Source: a virus. From it: a stretch of 37,760 nucleotides of DNA. This document shows, piece after piece, positions 12,601 through 20,104 of this stretch; position 1 is the stretch's first letter, and each line of letters starts with the position of its first letter. The position numbers and the translations under genes were made by a program. The stretch is taken from IMG/VR virus record IMGVR_UViG_3300025684_000001, positions 1-37,760 of that record; one strand, 5' to 3'. The notes under the pieces were generated by a model that was not told the DNA's origin, did not search any database, and saw nothing but the letters and a program-made list of their open reading frames with translations.

Positions 12601-12723
12601 ATTTGCAAAAAACTGGCCCTCCCTGCATTTTTTTGTTATCCTGTGCGCGTTAGTGGCTAACTCCCACCCGGCCACTGAGCCACCCGGCTCCCCCGCGCTG
12701 TCATCCTCCCATGCTGGCGCGGG

Positions 12724-12752
12724 GTTACTTCGGGCAGGTTTTGCTGTATTAT
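12724..12752 (+). promoter_or_regulatory. Possible promoter of the virion unit
   Basis: TATTAT (12747-12752) with a poor -35 match (GTTACT, 12724-12729) at 17 bases lies 30 bases before the first virion-cluster gene. The weak -35 suggests it needs an activator. It is placed where a late promoter is expected, in the spacer 12534-12781, which otherwise holds no gene. Confidence 0.3.
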
Positions 12753-12781
12753 CGTGGGAAACGAGGGACGAGGGCGCACTT

Positions 12782-13495
12782 ATGGGCATATTAGACGATC
12801 TGGCGATGGGTTTCGGCCTCAAGGAAAGAGACCGGGACTATTACGACCGAACCTCCGCCACGATAAGTCGGAACCAAGGCTCTGACGCCGGCGACAAGTA
12901 TATGTCCGGCCTCGGCGACAAATACAAAGCCGCCCCCAACTACTCCAACGCCATCGGCCCATCTCTGGCTGACTTCCGCCAAATACCCAACACAGGTGCC
13001 GGCGCGAACCCATACGACGCCTCCGGCAACCTCCGCTCGGACTACAAGCCCGGATCTGCGGCCCAGCGCTACAGAGACGTCGGCCGCCCGCAGCCCGGAA
13101 CACTGCCGCACATGCTGACCCGATCTCCGGGCATCTTGGGCATCCTCGCTAACCTCTTTGGCGGCTACAAGCCGATCCAGCCGCAAGGTGAATTGCGGTC
13201 GTCGTACAAGCCAATGAGCGCTAAGGCGGCGCCTATGGGCTTCACGCCTGAGCCGGTTGAGACGTCAGTGCTTTCTGATTATTCTGGAATTCCAGCGGGT
13301 ATGGAGGCGCAATACAGTACGTCTCCGGCGCCTCTCTTAGCGGGGCAGGATATGCAGCCACCCCCAGTGGACGCAGAGTTTGAGGCGTGGCTGCAAACTG
13401 ACCAAGGAAGGCCGTACAATCTGCCAGACCTGCCGGCTGATTTCGTGCGCCGCGCGTTCGAGACATCCAAGCGCCTTAAAGCAGGAAAGTTTTAA
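12782..13495 (+). CDS. Unknown virion-cluster protein (237 aa)
   Basis: The start at 12782 (MGILDDLAMGFGLKERD) follows ACGAGGG; a GTG far upstream would translate the promoter spacer and is rejected. The protein is rich in Tyr, Pro, Gly and Ser and contains a duplicated element, GNLRSDYKPGSA and GELRSSYKPMSA, with a hydrophobic ILGILANLFGGY between them. It ends with a helical, charged segment. Low complexity and position next to a transglycosylase suggest an internal virion or tail-associated protein. No family recognised. Its stop overlaps the next start (TAATG). Confidence 0.7.
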   Translation: MGILDDLAMGFGLKERDRDYYDRTSATISRNQGSDAGDKYMSGLGDKYKAAPNYSNAIGPSLADFRQIPNTGAGANPYDASGNLRSDYKPGSAAQRYRDVGRPQPGTLPHMLTRSPGILGILANLFGGYKPIQPQGELRSSYKPMSAKAAPMGFTPEPVETSVLSDYSGIPAGMEAQYSTSPAPLLAGQDMQPPPVDAEFEAWLQTDQGRPYNLPDLPADFVRRAFETSKRLKAGKF

Positions 13496-14055
13496 TGCCA
13501 GATTATGATTTCAAATCCTTGCTCGACGCGATCCAGCGCCAAGAAAGCAGCCGCAACCGCGACGACCCAAACGAGACCACAAAGCCGCTCCCACTGGTTA
13601 ACCCGGAGAGCGGCGCACGCGGCCAGATGCAGGTCGTGCCGGGTGCTGCGATGGATCCGGGTTACGCGGCACAGGGCGCGAAGGACGTGTTTGATATCGC
13701 TGAAGAAATGTTCGGCAAGAAATTTAGTCGCGATGAGCAGACCGCGAAGGACTTGCTCGACATCCCGGAGGTCAACCGCGCCTATGCTGACGCATACATG
13801 CGCGCCATGATCGAGCGCTTTAATGGCGACATCGACAAGGCGGTGGGCGCGTACAATGCCGGCCCCGGCCGCATGCTCGACGCCGACGGCAAATATTACA
13901 ACTTGCCAGCCGAGACGCAGCAATACATCGACAACGTGCGCCAGTATTACAACCAGTCGACCGGCGACAACTACGGCATCACAGTGTCACCGACGCCGCG
14001 CATGCGCCCCGGCAGCGTAAGGCCGCAGGCGCGCCCAACAGGATTACTTGGCTGA
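13495..14055 (+). CDS. Lytic transglycosylase (SLT-like), virion-associated
   Basis: The 186-residue protein shows the SLT fold markers: catalytic Glu17 in IQRQESSRN, GARGQMQVVPGAA, and AVGAYNAGPGRML. Residues after about 150 are a Pro/Arg tail. It would open peptidoglycan locally during DNA entry and not at lysis, because it lies in the virion cluster and not beside the holin. P22-like phages place such activity among tail or ejection proteins. Start and stop overlap both neighbours by a single base, so translation is coupled. Confidence 0.85.
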   Translation: MPDYDFKSLLDAIQRQESSRNRDDPNETTKPLPLVNPESGARGQMQVVPGAAMDPGYAAQGAKDVFDIAEEMFGKKFSRDEQTAKDLLDIPEVNRAYADAYMRAMIERFNGDIDKAVGAYNAGPGRMLDADGKYYNLPAETQQYIDNVRQYYNQSTGDNYGITVSPTPRMRPGSVRPQARPTGLLG

Positions 14056-15740
14056 TGGATCTACGATACTACGTCCCACCAAATTTGCGCGGCGCCTATG
14101 ACGTGGCCAGCAATGTCGGAACCGGAGCTTACAACTTACTGAGTTCGTTTCAGCGAGACCCCTTCGGCACTAATAAGGCCATCGGTCAGGGCATGATCGA
14201 GGGTGTAGTTGACACAGTCTCGGACCCAGTCGGGACAGCCAGAGAGTTTGGCGGGACGTTAAAGCGAGGTCTGACATATACCGCCGCAGACAAGTTGATG
14301 GATATGTTTGGCGTTGAGCCCAAAGACGCGTCGCCCGATCAGCTTATAGCATCAAACGAGGCTCTCGCGTCCGACAGAGCCGCCGCATTGGGCACATTGG
14401 CTTCTGTAGTGCCAGGGGTTGGACCAGCTACTCGAGTTGCCAGCCGATTAGAGGTTGACCCCAATTCTATGGGCTCCCTGCTCGGTAATGTGCGTTTAAG
14501 GCCGAAGGCATCTGCGCCATTCGACGCTGGTCGGGGCACCGCCGGCAATAGCGGCCCGAGCCTTCTGGACGCGCTCGAGGCTCGCGCCGCTCAGATGGAA
14601 TTTAAGCCGCCCGACCGTATTCAGCCTGCTCCGGGCGGAGCGGGAATATTTGACAGAGATTATCAAACGCCTGCTCCCAGCGGCGCTTTTGAGGACTTAT
14701 CGTTAAAATACCCGCGGAACCCAGACGCCAAAGCGCCACTTCCAAAAGGCGACAGGTCTCGCATTCTCGTGGACCGCAGGGAGGCTATATCAAGCGCCTT
14801 GGCGGATCGCATTCGGGCGACAGGTCAGCTCGACGCTGACACGCGCTACTTCTACCACACTGACGGGCCGGTCTACCGCGCCGCCAGAAACGCTGGCCTG
14901 ACTGATGTCGAGGCGCAGGCTTATTTGCGTGATCTTAGTAACAATGTGGCAGCTACAAGCCCGCGCACAAAAGTTGAAGAGAATTTACGCAACGCCACAC
15001 TCGTGATGGCTAAAGATCAGCAAGGCATACCATTTCGGGATGTCGTCGGTCCCGGCACTATACGGCCAGACGGCACTAAGGGTATCAGTGAAAAAGGTTA
15101 TCCCATGATGACTGCCAAGGGTGGGATCCACGGCGGCCTATTGGATGACGTGGCGGCCACTGGCGCTATGGATGTGGCGAGAAATCCTAAGCCGTCCAAC
15201 TTCGGCGCGAACCTATCAGGGAACCGCAGCGGTGTCACAATGGACACTCACGCGATCCGAGGCACGTTGATGACGTTGAATGAAATGGAGCCGGGATCGG
15301 TTCCCGAAGGCTTTATCCTGCCAAAATTCCGAGATCAGTACGCCAAAGACCCTAGTGTCCTAACGCCCAATATGATCGACGACACACTCGCGTCTCAGAT
15401 GACAGGTCCAAAAGGCAGCACCACCAAGTTGCAGACTGAATATCCTGTATTTGCGGACATATGGCACGACGCAGCCGCAAAGTTGGGCGTGTCTCCGGCC
15501 GAGGCTCAGTCAATGGGCTGGTTTGGCTTCGGAGATGAGACAAATCTGGGAAGCGCGAGAAAAACGCCGGTGGATATATTTGATGATCGACTGAGCGTTA
15601 CAGCACAGGCGCTTGGCATCACCCCACAGGAGGCTGCGCGTTCAGTGTTTCGCCGGAAAATACCTTTACTCGCGGCTCCTTTTGCTGCCGCTCCGCTTTT
15701 GGCTCTACAGCCCCAGCAAGATCCAAGACAACAATATTAG
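14055..15740 (+). CDS. Virion-cluster protein with DUF7178/HhH-GPD-like segment
   Basis: The 561-residue protein begins with a Gly/Ala-rich amphipathic part (residues 1-130) and ends in a hydrophobic tail (IPLLAAPFAAAPLLALQP). Residues about 265-410 hold NNVAATSPRTKVEENLRNA and, further on, KPSNFGANLSG followed by GVTMDTHAIR. This resembles DUF7178 phage proteins as I remember them. The order Lys379, Asn382, Asn386, Asp397-Thr-His, Arg402 has the same spacing as the Lys120/Asp138 region of endonuclease III. If real, it would be a DNA-glycosylase-like domain in a protein packaged or ejected with DNA. Between the transglycosylase and portal genes, an ejection role fits. The enzyme idea is inference. 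Confidence 0.7.
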   Translation: MDLRYYVPPNLRGAYDVASNVGTGAYNLLSSFQRDPFGTNKAIGQGMIEGVVDTVSDPVGTAREFGGTLKRGLTYTAADKLMDMFGVEPKDASPDQLIASNEALASDRAAALGTLASVVPGVGPATRVASRLEVDPNSMGSLLGNVRLRPKASAPFDAGRGTAGNSGPSLLDALEARAAQMEFKPPDRIQPAPGGAGIFDRDYQTPAPSGAFEDLSLKYPRNPDAKAPLPKGDRSRILVDRREAISSALADRIRATGQLDADTRYFYHTDGPVYRAARNAGLTDVEAQAYLRDLSNNVAATSPRTKVEENLRNATLVMAKDQQGIPFRDVVGPGTIRPDGTKGISEKGYPMMTAKGGIHGGLLDDVAATGAMDVARNPKPSNFGANLSGNRSGVTMDTHAIRGTLMTLNEMEPGSVPEGFILPKFRDQYAKDPSVLTPNMIDDTLASQMTGPKGSTTKLQTEYPVFADIWHDAAAKLGVSPAEAQSMGWFGFGDETNLGSARKTPVDIFDDRLSVTAQALGITPQEAARSVFRRKIPLLAAPFAAAPLLALQPQQDPRQQY

Positions 15741-15749
15741 AGGCTTGAT

Positions 15750-17873
15750 ATGGACTATGACATGAATAAGATGGCCTCAGAGCTTGAGGCAGAGCTTAAC
15801 CCGGACGTGATGGACGAGGTGGAGTTGCAGTCGGTCGTCGCGCGCGAGCTCGAGGACGCAATCGACTATATCGACAACTACATCAGCCCCAAGCGAGCTG
15901 AGGCGACCAAATATTACAACGGCGCCCCATTCGGGAACGAGGAAGAAGGCCGCAGTCAAGTGGTCAGCCGAGACGTGCGGGATACCGTACAGGCCGTCAT
16001 GCCGTCGCTGATGCGCGTGTTCCACGGCTCCGACGAGGCAGTGTCATATATCCCCACCGGCCCAGAGGATGTCGAGGCGGCCCAGCAGGCGACCGACTAC
16101 GCCAATTTCATTATGAACCGCGACAACAACGGCTTCTTGGCGATGCACTCAGCATTTAAAGACGCCCTGATCCGCAAGGTCGGCATCATCAAGTGCTTCT
16201 GGGAAGACAAGACAGAAGTCGAGACCTATAACCTGACCGGCCTTGACGATGCTGCACTTGCAGCACTCGCCGCCGACCCGGACGCGGAAATCACTGTGCA
16301 GTCGTCTGAGACTTTCGGCGAGCCGCAGATCGACCCCAACACCGGCCAGTTTATCATGCCGCCAATGGTCCACAGTGTGACAGTCGAATATGTGCGCCCA
16401 GATGGCCGCGTGCAGATCGAGGCTGTGCCGCCCGAGGAGTTCCTGATCTCTCGCGAGAGTAAGGACGTCGAGACGTCTGACTATGTCGCGCACCGCCGCA
16501 TCATCACGGTGTCCGAGTTGATCTCCATGGGCTACAGCGCCGAAGAGGTCGAGGATCTGGCGTCGGCCCACGACGACATGAACACCAACGTCGAGCGCAA
16601 CACTCGAAACCCAGCCCTGTCAAACGAGATGAACGCGCGCAACGACGAGGCGATGCGCAAGGTGCTTTATGTAGAGAGTTACATACGCGTCGACTATGAC
16701 GGCGACGGGATCGCCGAGTTGCGTAAAATTTGCACCGCGGGCGACGGCAACAAGATCCTGAGCAACACGCCAATCACAATGGCGCCGTTTGCCACATTTA
16801 CCCCGGAGCCAGAGGCGCACGACTTTTTCGGATCATCCTTGGCAGACGCAGTCATGGACATCCAGCTCATCAAGTCAAACGTCATGCGCAACACGCTCGA
16901 CAGCCTGAGCCAGAGTATCAACCCGCGCTTGGCGATTGTTGAGGGCATGGTGAACCTGGAAGACGCAATGTCTACCGAGAATGGCGCAATCATCCGTCAG
17001 CGTGCCGCCGGCCAAATTCAGCCAATGAGCATCCCGTTTGTCGGTCAGGCCGCGTTCCCGGTCTTACAGTACATGGACGACGTCAAGGAGGCCCGTACAG
17101 GCATCTCCAAGGCGTCAATGGGTTTGGATGCGTCTGCACTCCAGAGCAGCACTGCCGGCGCTGTAAACGCCACTGTGGCGGCCGCACAGCAGCACATCGA
17201 GCTGATCGCCCGCGTGTTCGCCGAGACCGGCATGAAGCGCCTGTTCCAGATCATCTTGCAGCTCATCACTACGCACCAAGACCAGCCGCGCATGGTGCGC
17301 CTGCGCAATAAATTCGTGCCTATCGATCCGAGGGCTTGGAGCGCAGACATGGACGTGTCCGTTAATGTGGCGTTGGGCCGTGGAACAGACACTGAGCGCA
17401 TGATGATGCTGCGCCAGATCGGCGAGATGCAGAAGGAGGCCATGGCCACAATGGGTCAAATCAATCCGCTCACCGACATGGCAAAGCTGGGCAACACGCT
17501 CAAGTCGATGACCGAGCTGGCTGGCTTCAAAGACACCTCACAATTCTGGAACGACCCGGCCGACTTCCAGCCGCCGCCACCAGACAACAAGCCCGACATC
17601 AACGAGCAACTGATCCAAGTGCAAATTCAGCAGATCCAAGCGGACATGCAGAAGAAGGCAGCCGAGTTGCAGCTCAAGCGTGAGAACATGATGATGGAGG
17701 ACGACCGCAAGCGCGACGAGCTCGAGGCCGAGCTGTTCGTGAAGGCGGAGGAAATGCAGGCCAAATACGGCACGCAGTTGAACGTCGAAAAGATCCGCTC
17801 CGAGCTGGCGATCAATCGCGAGATAATGCGCGGACAAGTTGACGTCATAAAGGAGGGAGCGCGTGAAGAGTAA
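15750..17873 (+). CDS. Portal protein, P22 type
   Basis: At 707 residues it is close to P22 gp1 (about 725). It has the P22 portal features: an N-terminal YIDNYISPKRAEATKYYNG clip/wing start, VVSRDVRDTVQAVMPSLMRVF, VPPEEFLISRES, and AHDFFGSSLADAVMDIQLIKSNVMRNTLDSL in the stem, and a long Gln/Glu coiled-coil C terminus (residues about 610-700) like the P22 barrel. It forms the dodecameric gate through which DNA enters and leaves. The start has only a weak AGAGG site. The next gene overlaps its end. Confidence 0.92.
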   Translation: MDYDMNKMASELEAELNPDVMDEVELQSVVARELEDAIDYIDNYISPKRAEATKYYNGAPFGNEEEGRSQVVSRDVRDTVQAVMPSLMRVFHGSDEAVSYIPTGPEDVEAAQQATDYANFIMNRDNNGFLAMHSAFKDALIRKVGIIKCFWEDKTEVETYNLTGLDDAALAALAADPDAEITVQSSETFGEPQIDPNTGQFIMPPMVHSVTVEYVRPDGRVQIEAVPPEEFLISRESKDVETSDYVAHRRIITVSELISMGYSAEEVEDLASAHDDMNTNVERNTRNPALSNEMNARNDEAMRKVLYVESYIRVDYDGDGIAELRKICTAGDGNKILSNTPITMAPFATFTPEPEAHDFFGSSLADAVMDIQLIKSNVMRNTLDSLSQSINPRLAIVEGMVNLEDAMSTENGAIIRQRAAGQIQPMSIPFVGQAAFPVLQYMDDVKEARTGISKASMGLDASALQSSTAGAVNATVAAAQQHIELIARVFAETGMKRLFQIILQLITTHQDQPRMVRLRNKFVPIDPRAWSADMDVSVNVALGRGTDTERMMMLRQIGEMQKEAMATMGQINPLTDMAKLGNTLKSMTELAGFKDTSQFWNDPADFQPPPPDNKPDINEQLIQVQIQQIQADMQKKAAELQLKRENMMMEDDRKRDELEAELFVKAEEMQAKYGTQLNVEKIRSELAINREIMRGQVDVIKEGAREE

Positions 17874-19147: not shown

Positions 19148-20104
19148 ATGGCAATCGTAGGTAATACATTCACCTCATTCGACGCGAAGGGTATTCGCGA
19201 AGAATTATCCAATATCATCAGTAACATAAGCCCAGAAGACGTTCCATTCCAGTCTAATGTCGGCTCCGAAAATGTGTCCAACACATATTTTGAGTGGCAA
19301 ACAGACGAATTGGCTAGTGCGCAGAACGTACCAGTCATTGATGGGGATGATGTTTCTTCTTTTGATTCAACAGCTTCCACTGCGCGCGTAGGCAACTACA
19401 CACAAATCGCCCGCCGCACAATGATCGTCGCTGACAACCTCGGCAGCCAAGATTTGGCCGGTCGCAACGATGAAATCAGCTACCAGATGGCCAAGCGCGG
19501 CTCTGAGCTGAAGCGCGACGTAGAGCTGATCTTGACTGCAAACGCAGCCAAAGGCGCGGGCAACTCTTCGACTGCTCGTGTGACTGGTGGCCTCGGCGCA
19601 TGGATCGCAACCAACACCAGCAAAGCTGGCGACGGCACAGACCCAACTGCTGTAGACGGTTCCGACGCCCGTAACGACGGCACCCAGCGCGACTTGACCG
19701 AAGCAATGGTCAAAGACGTGATGCAAAAGGCGTTTACAGAAGGTGGTCAGCCATCTGTTCTGATGGTCGGCCCTTACAACAAAACTGTTGTATCTGGCTT
19801 CGCCGGTATCGCCGCACAGCGTTACCAAGCGCCATCCGACGGTCCAACCACAATCATCGGCGCCGCTGACGTTTATCTGTCAGACTTCGGCACCTTGTCT
19901 GTGGTTCCAAACCGCTTCCAGCGTGAGCGTGACGCCTTCTTGCTCGACCCAGAGTACGCATCTGTATGCTACCTGCGTCCGATCCAAGCAGTCGATCTTG
20001 CCAAGACCGGCGACGCCGAGAAAAAAATGCTCCTCTGCGAAATGGGCCTCAAGGTGTCCCAGCAAAAAGCTCACGGCGGCATTTTCGATCTCAACGTATC
20101 ATAA
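19148..20104 (+). CDS. Major capsid protein, SU10 / DUF5309 type
   Basis: The 318-residue protein matches the SU10-like major capsid family (DUF5309). It begins TFTSFDAKGIREELSNIISNISPEDVPFQSNVG, then YFEWQTDELAS, NYTQIARRTMIVADNL, the spine helix region EISYQMAKRGSELKRDVELIL, and ends with RPIQAVDLAKTGDAEKKMLLCEMGL. It should adopt the HK97 fold and form the icosahedral shell. It is followed by a strong hairpin, common after highly expressed coat genes. AT-richer synonymous codons than its neighbours fit high expression. Confidence 0.95.
   Translation: MAIVGNTFTSFDAKGIREELSNIISNISPEDVPFQSNVGSENVSNTYFEWQTDELASAQNVPVIDGDDVSSFDSTASTARVGNYTQIARRTMIVADNLGSQDLAGRNDEISYQMAKRGSELKRDVELILTANAAKGAGNSSTARVTGGLGAWIATNTSKAGDGTDPTAVDGSDARNDGTQRDLTEAMVKDVMQKAFTEGGQPSVLMVGPYNKTVVSGFAGIAAQRYQAPSDGPTTIIGAADVYLSDFGTLSVVPNRFQRERDAFLLDPEYASVCYLRPIQAVDLAKTGDAEKKMLLCEMGLKVSQQKAHGGIFDLNVS

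Follow-up and report, generated by a model that had tools for sequence, protein, structure and literature searches.

In DNA glycosylases of the HhH-GPD superfamily, the catalytic Lys/Asp pair is located at the N-termini of successive helices. Their fold is all-helical and consists of two domains with the active site in between; the catalytic Asp follows a Gly/Pro-rich loop, and in bifunctional members the catalytic Lys lies at the beginning of the second HhH helix. In the OGG2 of Methanocaldococcus jannaschii (MjaOGG2), Trp198 stacks on 8-oxoG, Asp194, the counterpart of Gln315 in hOGG1, contacts the base, and the His after the catalytic Asp contacts phosphate (PMC3397491); this His is residue 149 of the MjaOGG2 sequence. 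Polyvalent proteins carry exchangeable modules on a carrier and are believed to enter the virion and be injected (Iyer et al. 2017, PMC5512222). The phage protein described here resembles them in its portal/terminase position, in its modular domains and in the ART-like, Mu-F-like and cell-wall hydrolase fusions of its relatives, but a glycosylase domain is not mentioned in the main text of PMC5512222. Brig-type glycosylases such as Brig3 are also comparable, as DNA glycosylases in phage-host conflict, but they are host-encoded and act against modified phage bases (PMC13160076).

The window, i.e. the whole stretch of DNA analysed, comprises 37,760 bases of an IMG/VR virus record with SU10-type head genes. 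A gene for a protein of 561 aa sits in it between TerL/transglycosylase and portal, with the following features (window positions):

13495..14055, + strand: lytic transglycosylase (SLT) gene (PF01464, E = 9.9e-12), directly upstream of the 561-aa ORF and overlapping it by 1 base
14055..15740, + strand: ORF of the 561-aa protein, an N-terminal segment plus a predicted OGG2-like domain, with a DUF7178 match
14055..14669, + strand: N-terminal segment, residues 1-205, common to gp40 of Roseobacter phage CRP-738; residues 1 to ~147 persist in viruses that have another module in place of the glycosylase
14670..15695, + strand: predicted OGG2-like (DUF7178-related) glycosylase domain, residues 206-547, from the AlphaFold2 model and VIA-align
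15750..17873, + strand: SU10-type portal gene (PF23899, E = 1.4e-213), directly downstream of the 561-aa ORF
19148..20104, + strand: SU10-type major capsid protein (PF17236, E = 9.6e-89)

Two further ORFs of the window deserve mention. The one before the transglycosylase gene (12653-13495; 280 aa) keeps its position and varies in its middle; it matched no Pfam or PHROG family, and its product is probably another virion protein. The other, at 55-972, encodes a C5 cytosine methylase (PF00145, E = 4e-24) that aligns to the profile from position 116 only, its N-terminal part being missing or beyond the end of the record. Among 107 distinct relatives of the 561-aa protein outside the stand-alone DUF7178 set, a head or packaging gene was present in the flank of at least 68 and a portal gene within 700 bp of at least 46, both figures being lower bounds, since many of the loci are short fragments and other portal types were left out.

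An earlier note, made from the sequence, had pointed to a resemblance to DUF7178 phage proteins, and this proved sound. DUF7178 (PF23802) was the only Pfam family reported by hmmscan for the 561-aa protein (E = 9.6e-6; 26.1 bits, just under the cut-off of 27), and profile-profile comparison with stand-alone DUF7178 proteins by hhalign gave a probability of 94.6% and E = 6.6e-8. The relatives in Microcystis phage MJing1 (29.8 bits) and Roseobacter phage CRP-212 (35.3 bits) both scored above the cut-off, and gp40 of CRP-738, which shares the N-terminal segment, carries a DUF7178 domain at 85.6 bits. In PHROG, the single match was phrog_3842, a family of unknown function. The 561-aa protein has the domain of PF23802/PHROG 3842 and shares with it the invariant Lys, Asp, His, Gln and Trp. 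Stand-alone DUF7178 proteins, of ~200 residues, occur in at least 156 phage records and are mostly annotated as hypothetical, with single records naming an N-glycosylase/DNA lyase (S-CRES3 gp63), a DNA glycosylase and a glycosylase. Compared with these, the 561-aa protein has longer insertions and lies in a head-gene cluster, whereas stand-alone DUF7178 genes are found outside head modules too.

The AlphaFold2 model of residues 206-547 (pLDDT 89.9, pTM 0.88) is almost all helical. Plain Foldseek of this model against PDB gave no significant match, unrelated helical proteins being on top. VIA-align, run on the same candidates, placed the Methanocaldococcus OGG2 first (3knt; Z 10.6, 178 aa, 3.1 A), the Thermotoga OGG2 (3n0u, TM1821; 182 aa, 3.6 A) having the same Z of 10.6, a value that, like others near 10, can arise by chance for helical models. 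The top four rows were all OGG2 or AGOG (Z 10.6-6.7), including AGOG 1xqo (Z 6.9, 190 aa, 4.5 A); the fifth was the phage base-modifying enzyme PUGT (8z2n; Z 4.5, 188 aa, 5.2 A), and the first row below it, an unrelated fold, had a Z of 3.3. Because of this chance level, a stand-alone DUF7178 protein was modelled separately (pLDDT 94). For this second model, ranks 1-8 of Foldseek against PDB were all OGG2 or AGOG (probability 0.97-1.00, E 0.02-0.3), and VIA-align gave Z values of 13.0 for SsOgg (3fhg; 172 aa, 3.5 A), ~10.5 for EndoIII-DNA complexes, 9.4 for 2abk (164 aa, 3.7 A) and ~9 for hOGG1, with HhH-GPD glycosylases making up 50 of the 50 matches listed. Structure prediction and structural search thus led, through both the VIA-align of the 206-547 model and the independent DUF7178 model, to the glycosylase-type fold that the earlier note had expected, and residues 206-547 almost certainly adopt the fold of the HhH-GPD superfamily, judging from these models. 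At the sequence level, a Pfam scan and a family-profile search of PDB matched neither PF00730 nor PF22175 nor any PDB chain, hhalign against small OGG2 and EndoIII sets was not significant, and PF22175 was absent from the 195 genomes of one phylum in which it was looked for.

Homologues of the 561-aa protein were found at 23 IMG/VR loci and in four phage records, the conserved unit spanning approximately residues 206-547 and the sequence N-terminal to it being variable among relatives. The earlier note had pointed to seven residues, Lys379, Asn382, Asn386, Asp397, Thr398, His399 and Arg402, as a signature with the spacing of E. coli endonuclease III (EndoIII), and the ORF translation confirms all seven at these positions. 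In an alignment of 42 sequences, including five CRP-901-like ones at 20-22% identity, the invariant residues (42/42) include Lys379, Phe383, Asp397, His399, Arg402, Glu462, Tyr463, Gln485 and Trp489; the two Asn of the signature fared differently, position 382 being Thr in 33/40 and Asn386 being replaced by Ser in the most distant branch. The conservation of Lys379 and Asp397, which had been set beforehand as a test, therefore holds down to ~20% identity. Lys and Asp are 18 residues apart in all 42 sequences, as they are in both E. coli EndoIII and M. jannaschii OGG2, and 17-22 apart across the wider DUF7178 set; because of this range, the letter-by-letter match to EndoIII is partly a coincidence, whereas the positions of K and D are not. 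The exact seven-residue signature was rejected as evidence of homology, as Asn382 varies and the K-D spacing varies in DUF7178.

It could be argued that the whole likeness is accidental, the protein being a structural helical bundle with a fortuitous K...D pattern, given that the pattern was chosen post hoc and contains the unconserved Asn382, and that plain Foldseek of the 206-547 model found nothing. However, five functional residues are invariant across very divergent relatives and two independent models converge on one superfamily, and we regard such an accident as extremely improbable.

A gene of the CRP-901 branch (locus L095, 7809-9179) is not recognised by Pfam although, at ~20% identity, its product retains all of K, D, H, Q and W, which indicates that the family extends beyond the curated DUF7178. 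A search of plasmids for the domain core found none, and a genome scan for the domain yielded two MAG contigs only, with no informative cellular host.

The residues and the loop that we compare with known active sites are as follows:

14949..14969, + strand: AATSPRT inter-helix loop, residues 299-305 (S302 invariant in 42 sequences; P303 and R304 near-invariant)
15189..15191, + strand: Lys379, predicted catalytic Lys, corresponding to OGG2 K129 (invariant 42/42; second residue of helix 378-387 in the model)
15243..15251, + strand: Asp397-Thr-His399, corresponding to OGG2 D147-R-H149 (both D and H invariant in 42/42; in the model, D sits at the N-terminus of the helix that follows)
15507..15521, + strand: Gln485...Trp489, predicted base pocket, corresponding to OGG2 D194...W198 and hOGG1 Q315...F319 (invariant 42/42)

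In the model, Asp397 directly precedes helix 398-411 and follows a Gly-containing GNRSGVTM loop. The DUF7178 model is built likewise, its conserved Lys being residue two of a helix and its conserved Asp lying just before the next helix; His140, Gln185 and Trp189 of DUF7178 are invariant (43/43), Gln and Trp always being 4 apart. In low-probability hhalign alignments, for which no structure was used, the DUF7178 Asp pairs with OGG2 Asp147, and Trp189 of DUF7178 and Trp489 of the 561-aa protein both pair with OGG2 Trp198. The active site is very probably equivalent to that of the HhH-GPD glycosylases. In addition, the AATSPRT loop sits where OGG2 has its Asn-containing LTAN loop and EndoIII its LLSAQ, and may be equivalent to them in intercalating into DNA.

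The earlier note had seen in the protein an EndoIII-like glycosylase domain that might act on DNA during entry or packaging, and of this claim the HhH-GPD-type fold and the conserved Lys/Asp have been borne out, whereas the nearest relatives turned out to be OGG2 and AGOG. With E. coli EndoIII (2abk), the phage protein shares the K...D spacing of 18 followed by DTH..R and, by fold via DUF7178, the superfamily, but it lacks the LPGVG hairpin and the [4Fe-4S] cysteines. Specifically, the canonical LPGVG/GIG hairpin is absent, the loop between helices 358-369 and 378-387 having 8 residues and no GxG, and the 561 aa contain no Cys at all. Since AGOG deviates at the hairpin too, its absence lowers only the claim to canonical membership. 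Membership of endonuclease III itself was rejected on account of the missing FeS cysteines and hairpin motif and the non-significant profile comparison. The domain is more OGG-like than EndoIII-like, because Gln485 and Trp489, with the OGG spacing, and His399 are invariant.

Compared with OGG2 (3knt, 3n0u, 3fhg; PF22175), the phage domain has a similar fold over ~180 residues, the same K-D spacing of 18 and invariant equivalents of K129, D147, H149 and W198; it differs in having no sequence match, no GIG hairpin and no C-terminal Lys sensor, in having Gln485 in place of Asp194, as in OGG1, and in being part of a larger phage protein. About 70 residues follow Trp489, with no terminal Lys at that point, and as the Lys sensor of OGG2 is thus unavailable, the substrate may not be 8-oxoG. 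AGOG (1xqo) shares the fold, a pair (Asp218...Trp222) corresponding to Gln485...Trp489 and a likewise non-canonical HhH, but its K-D distance is 32 (K140, D172) and it is a stand-alone archaeal repair enzyme.

The position of PUGT (8z2n; PaMx11 gp46) as fifth structural match, together with a hairpin unlike that of canonical glycosylases, raises the alternative that the fold has been kept for a chemistry other than base removal, such as base modification or the binding of flipped or bent DNA. OGG2 and AGOG are far better matches than PUGT, however, and thymidine hypermodification enzymes were not noticed among the window genes examined. The catalytic Lys/Asp and the OGG-type Gln/Asp...Trp pocket pair are both intact and invariant, which makes a PUGT-like base modification less likely, and we consider this alternative quite improbable. 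Real glycosylase activity of the predicted domain appears likely.

The segment in front of the domain behaves as a carrier. In five loci (L241-L245), the packaging genes, the first ~147 residues and the portal are kept at about 70-88% DNA identity, and the glycosylase is replaced by an unrelated C-terminal module. This module, of ~410 residues on the same N-terminal carrier (L241, 5440-6683; also in L242-L245), had no Pfam or PDB match and a weak PHROG match only. Another locus (L139, 4273-6120) has the window's order TerL-p280-SLT-X-portal, with X belonging to the other, CRP-738-type DUF7178 branch, which suggests that the two glycosylase branches replace each other at a single site. In relatives, the domain is also fused to the cell-wall hydrolase PF07486 (L046 and L126), to a Mu-F-like domain (L148) and to ART-PolyVal (L064), the last two matches being below cut-off, and to endolysin-type PHROGs. 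In Roseobacter phage CRP-901, a protein with a PBECR5 nuclease domain (L095, 9958-11517; PF18814, E = 3.4e-15) is encoded near the DUF7178-like gene, which would fit a cluster of injected enzymes. The family thus shows the portal-terminase gene company and the modular architecture by which polyvalent or ejected proteins are recognised.

A gene placed among TerL, transglycosylase and portal might instead encode a late protein that stays in the producing cell, where it would repair DNA or check its quality at the portal during packaging. Against this, the fusions to cell-wall hydrolase, transglycosylase-like endolysin and Mu-F-like domains point to entry, and packaging and injection are assumed for polyvalent proteins encoded at such positions (PMC5512222); a role confined to packaging therefore seems unlikely.

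Since the glycosylase can be swapped for an unrelated module, an offensive role has to be taken seriously as a rival, in which the injected glycosylase, as one of several carrier modules, would excise bases from the DNA of the host or of competitor elements and leave abasic sites. Apart from the swap on the same N-terminal carrier, where the DNA on either side of the replaced part is about 70-82% identical, the fusions to ART-PolyVal (sub-threshold) or cell-wall hydrolase in relatives and the PBECR5 nuclease gene close by in CRP-901 speak for such a role, and the C5 cytosine methylase of the window could mark self DNA. However, the likeness to repair enzymes extends to the base pocket, stand-alone DUF7178 genes are not restricted to head modules, no self/non-self rule is evident and there is no sign of toxicity, and we judge an offensive role to be rather unlikely. 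The existence of L241-L245 without the glycosylase argues, for its part, against an essential repair role.

On balance we favour the reading that a virion (polyvalent) protein carries the OGG2-like DNA glycosylase domain as an exchangeable module, is delivered with the genome and excises bases. Fold, conserved residues, gene context, fusions and swaps have been computed here; packaging, delivery, catalysis, substrate and purpose are what we infer. The OGG2-like build, the conserved catalytic and base-binding residues and the head-gene setting suggest that the phage may send a base-cutting enzyme along with its genome. The domain, which makes up the C-terminal two thirds of the protein, would be a DNA glycosylase, possibly a glycosylase/AP-lyase, of the HhH-GPD superfamily with OGG2 as its nearest type. 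The protein, whose presence in the virion we predict as quite probable, would be synthesised along with the head proteins, enter the particle next to the lytic transglycosylase and portal, and reach the cell together with the genome. Gln485 and Trp489 would form the pocket that receives the flipped base, probably a purine that is damaged or modified, and the N-glycosidic bond would be cut using Asp397 and Lys379. The most likely purpose would be the processing of lesions of incoming phage DNA ahead of host repair.

The fold and the label of the stand-alone family are known, or at least suspected in annotations; in the open-access literature searched, whose coverage is incomplete, we found no description of a virion-borne phage glycosylase or of the head-cluster form. 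More tentatively, we propose that phages may carry a base-excision enzyme in their virions, built as an interchangeable module into an ejected protein, for repair of virion-borne damage or for attack on host DNA, and that DUF7178 may represent a large uncurated phage branch of OGG2/HhH-GPD. DUF7178, which has members in at least 156 phage records and no known function, thereby gains a testable structure and active site, and DNA base excision would be added to the activities that virion proteins may bring into the cell. An enzyme that repairs incoming DNA would help to explain how phages survive damage in sunlit water; if it attacks instead, glycosylases would also stand on the phage side of a conflict known for host glycosylases like Brig3.
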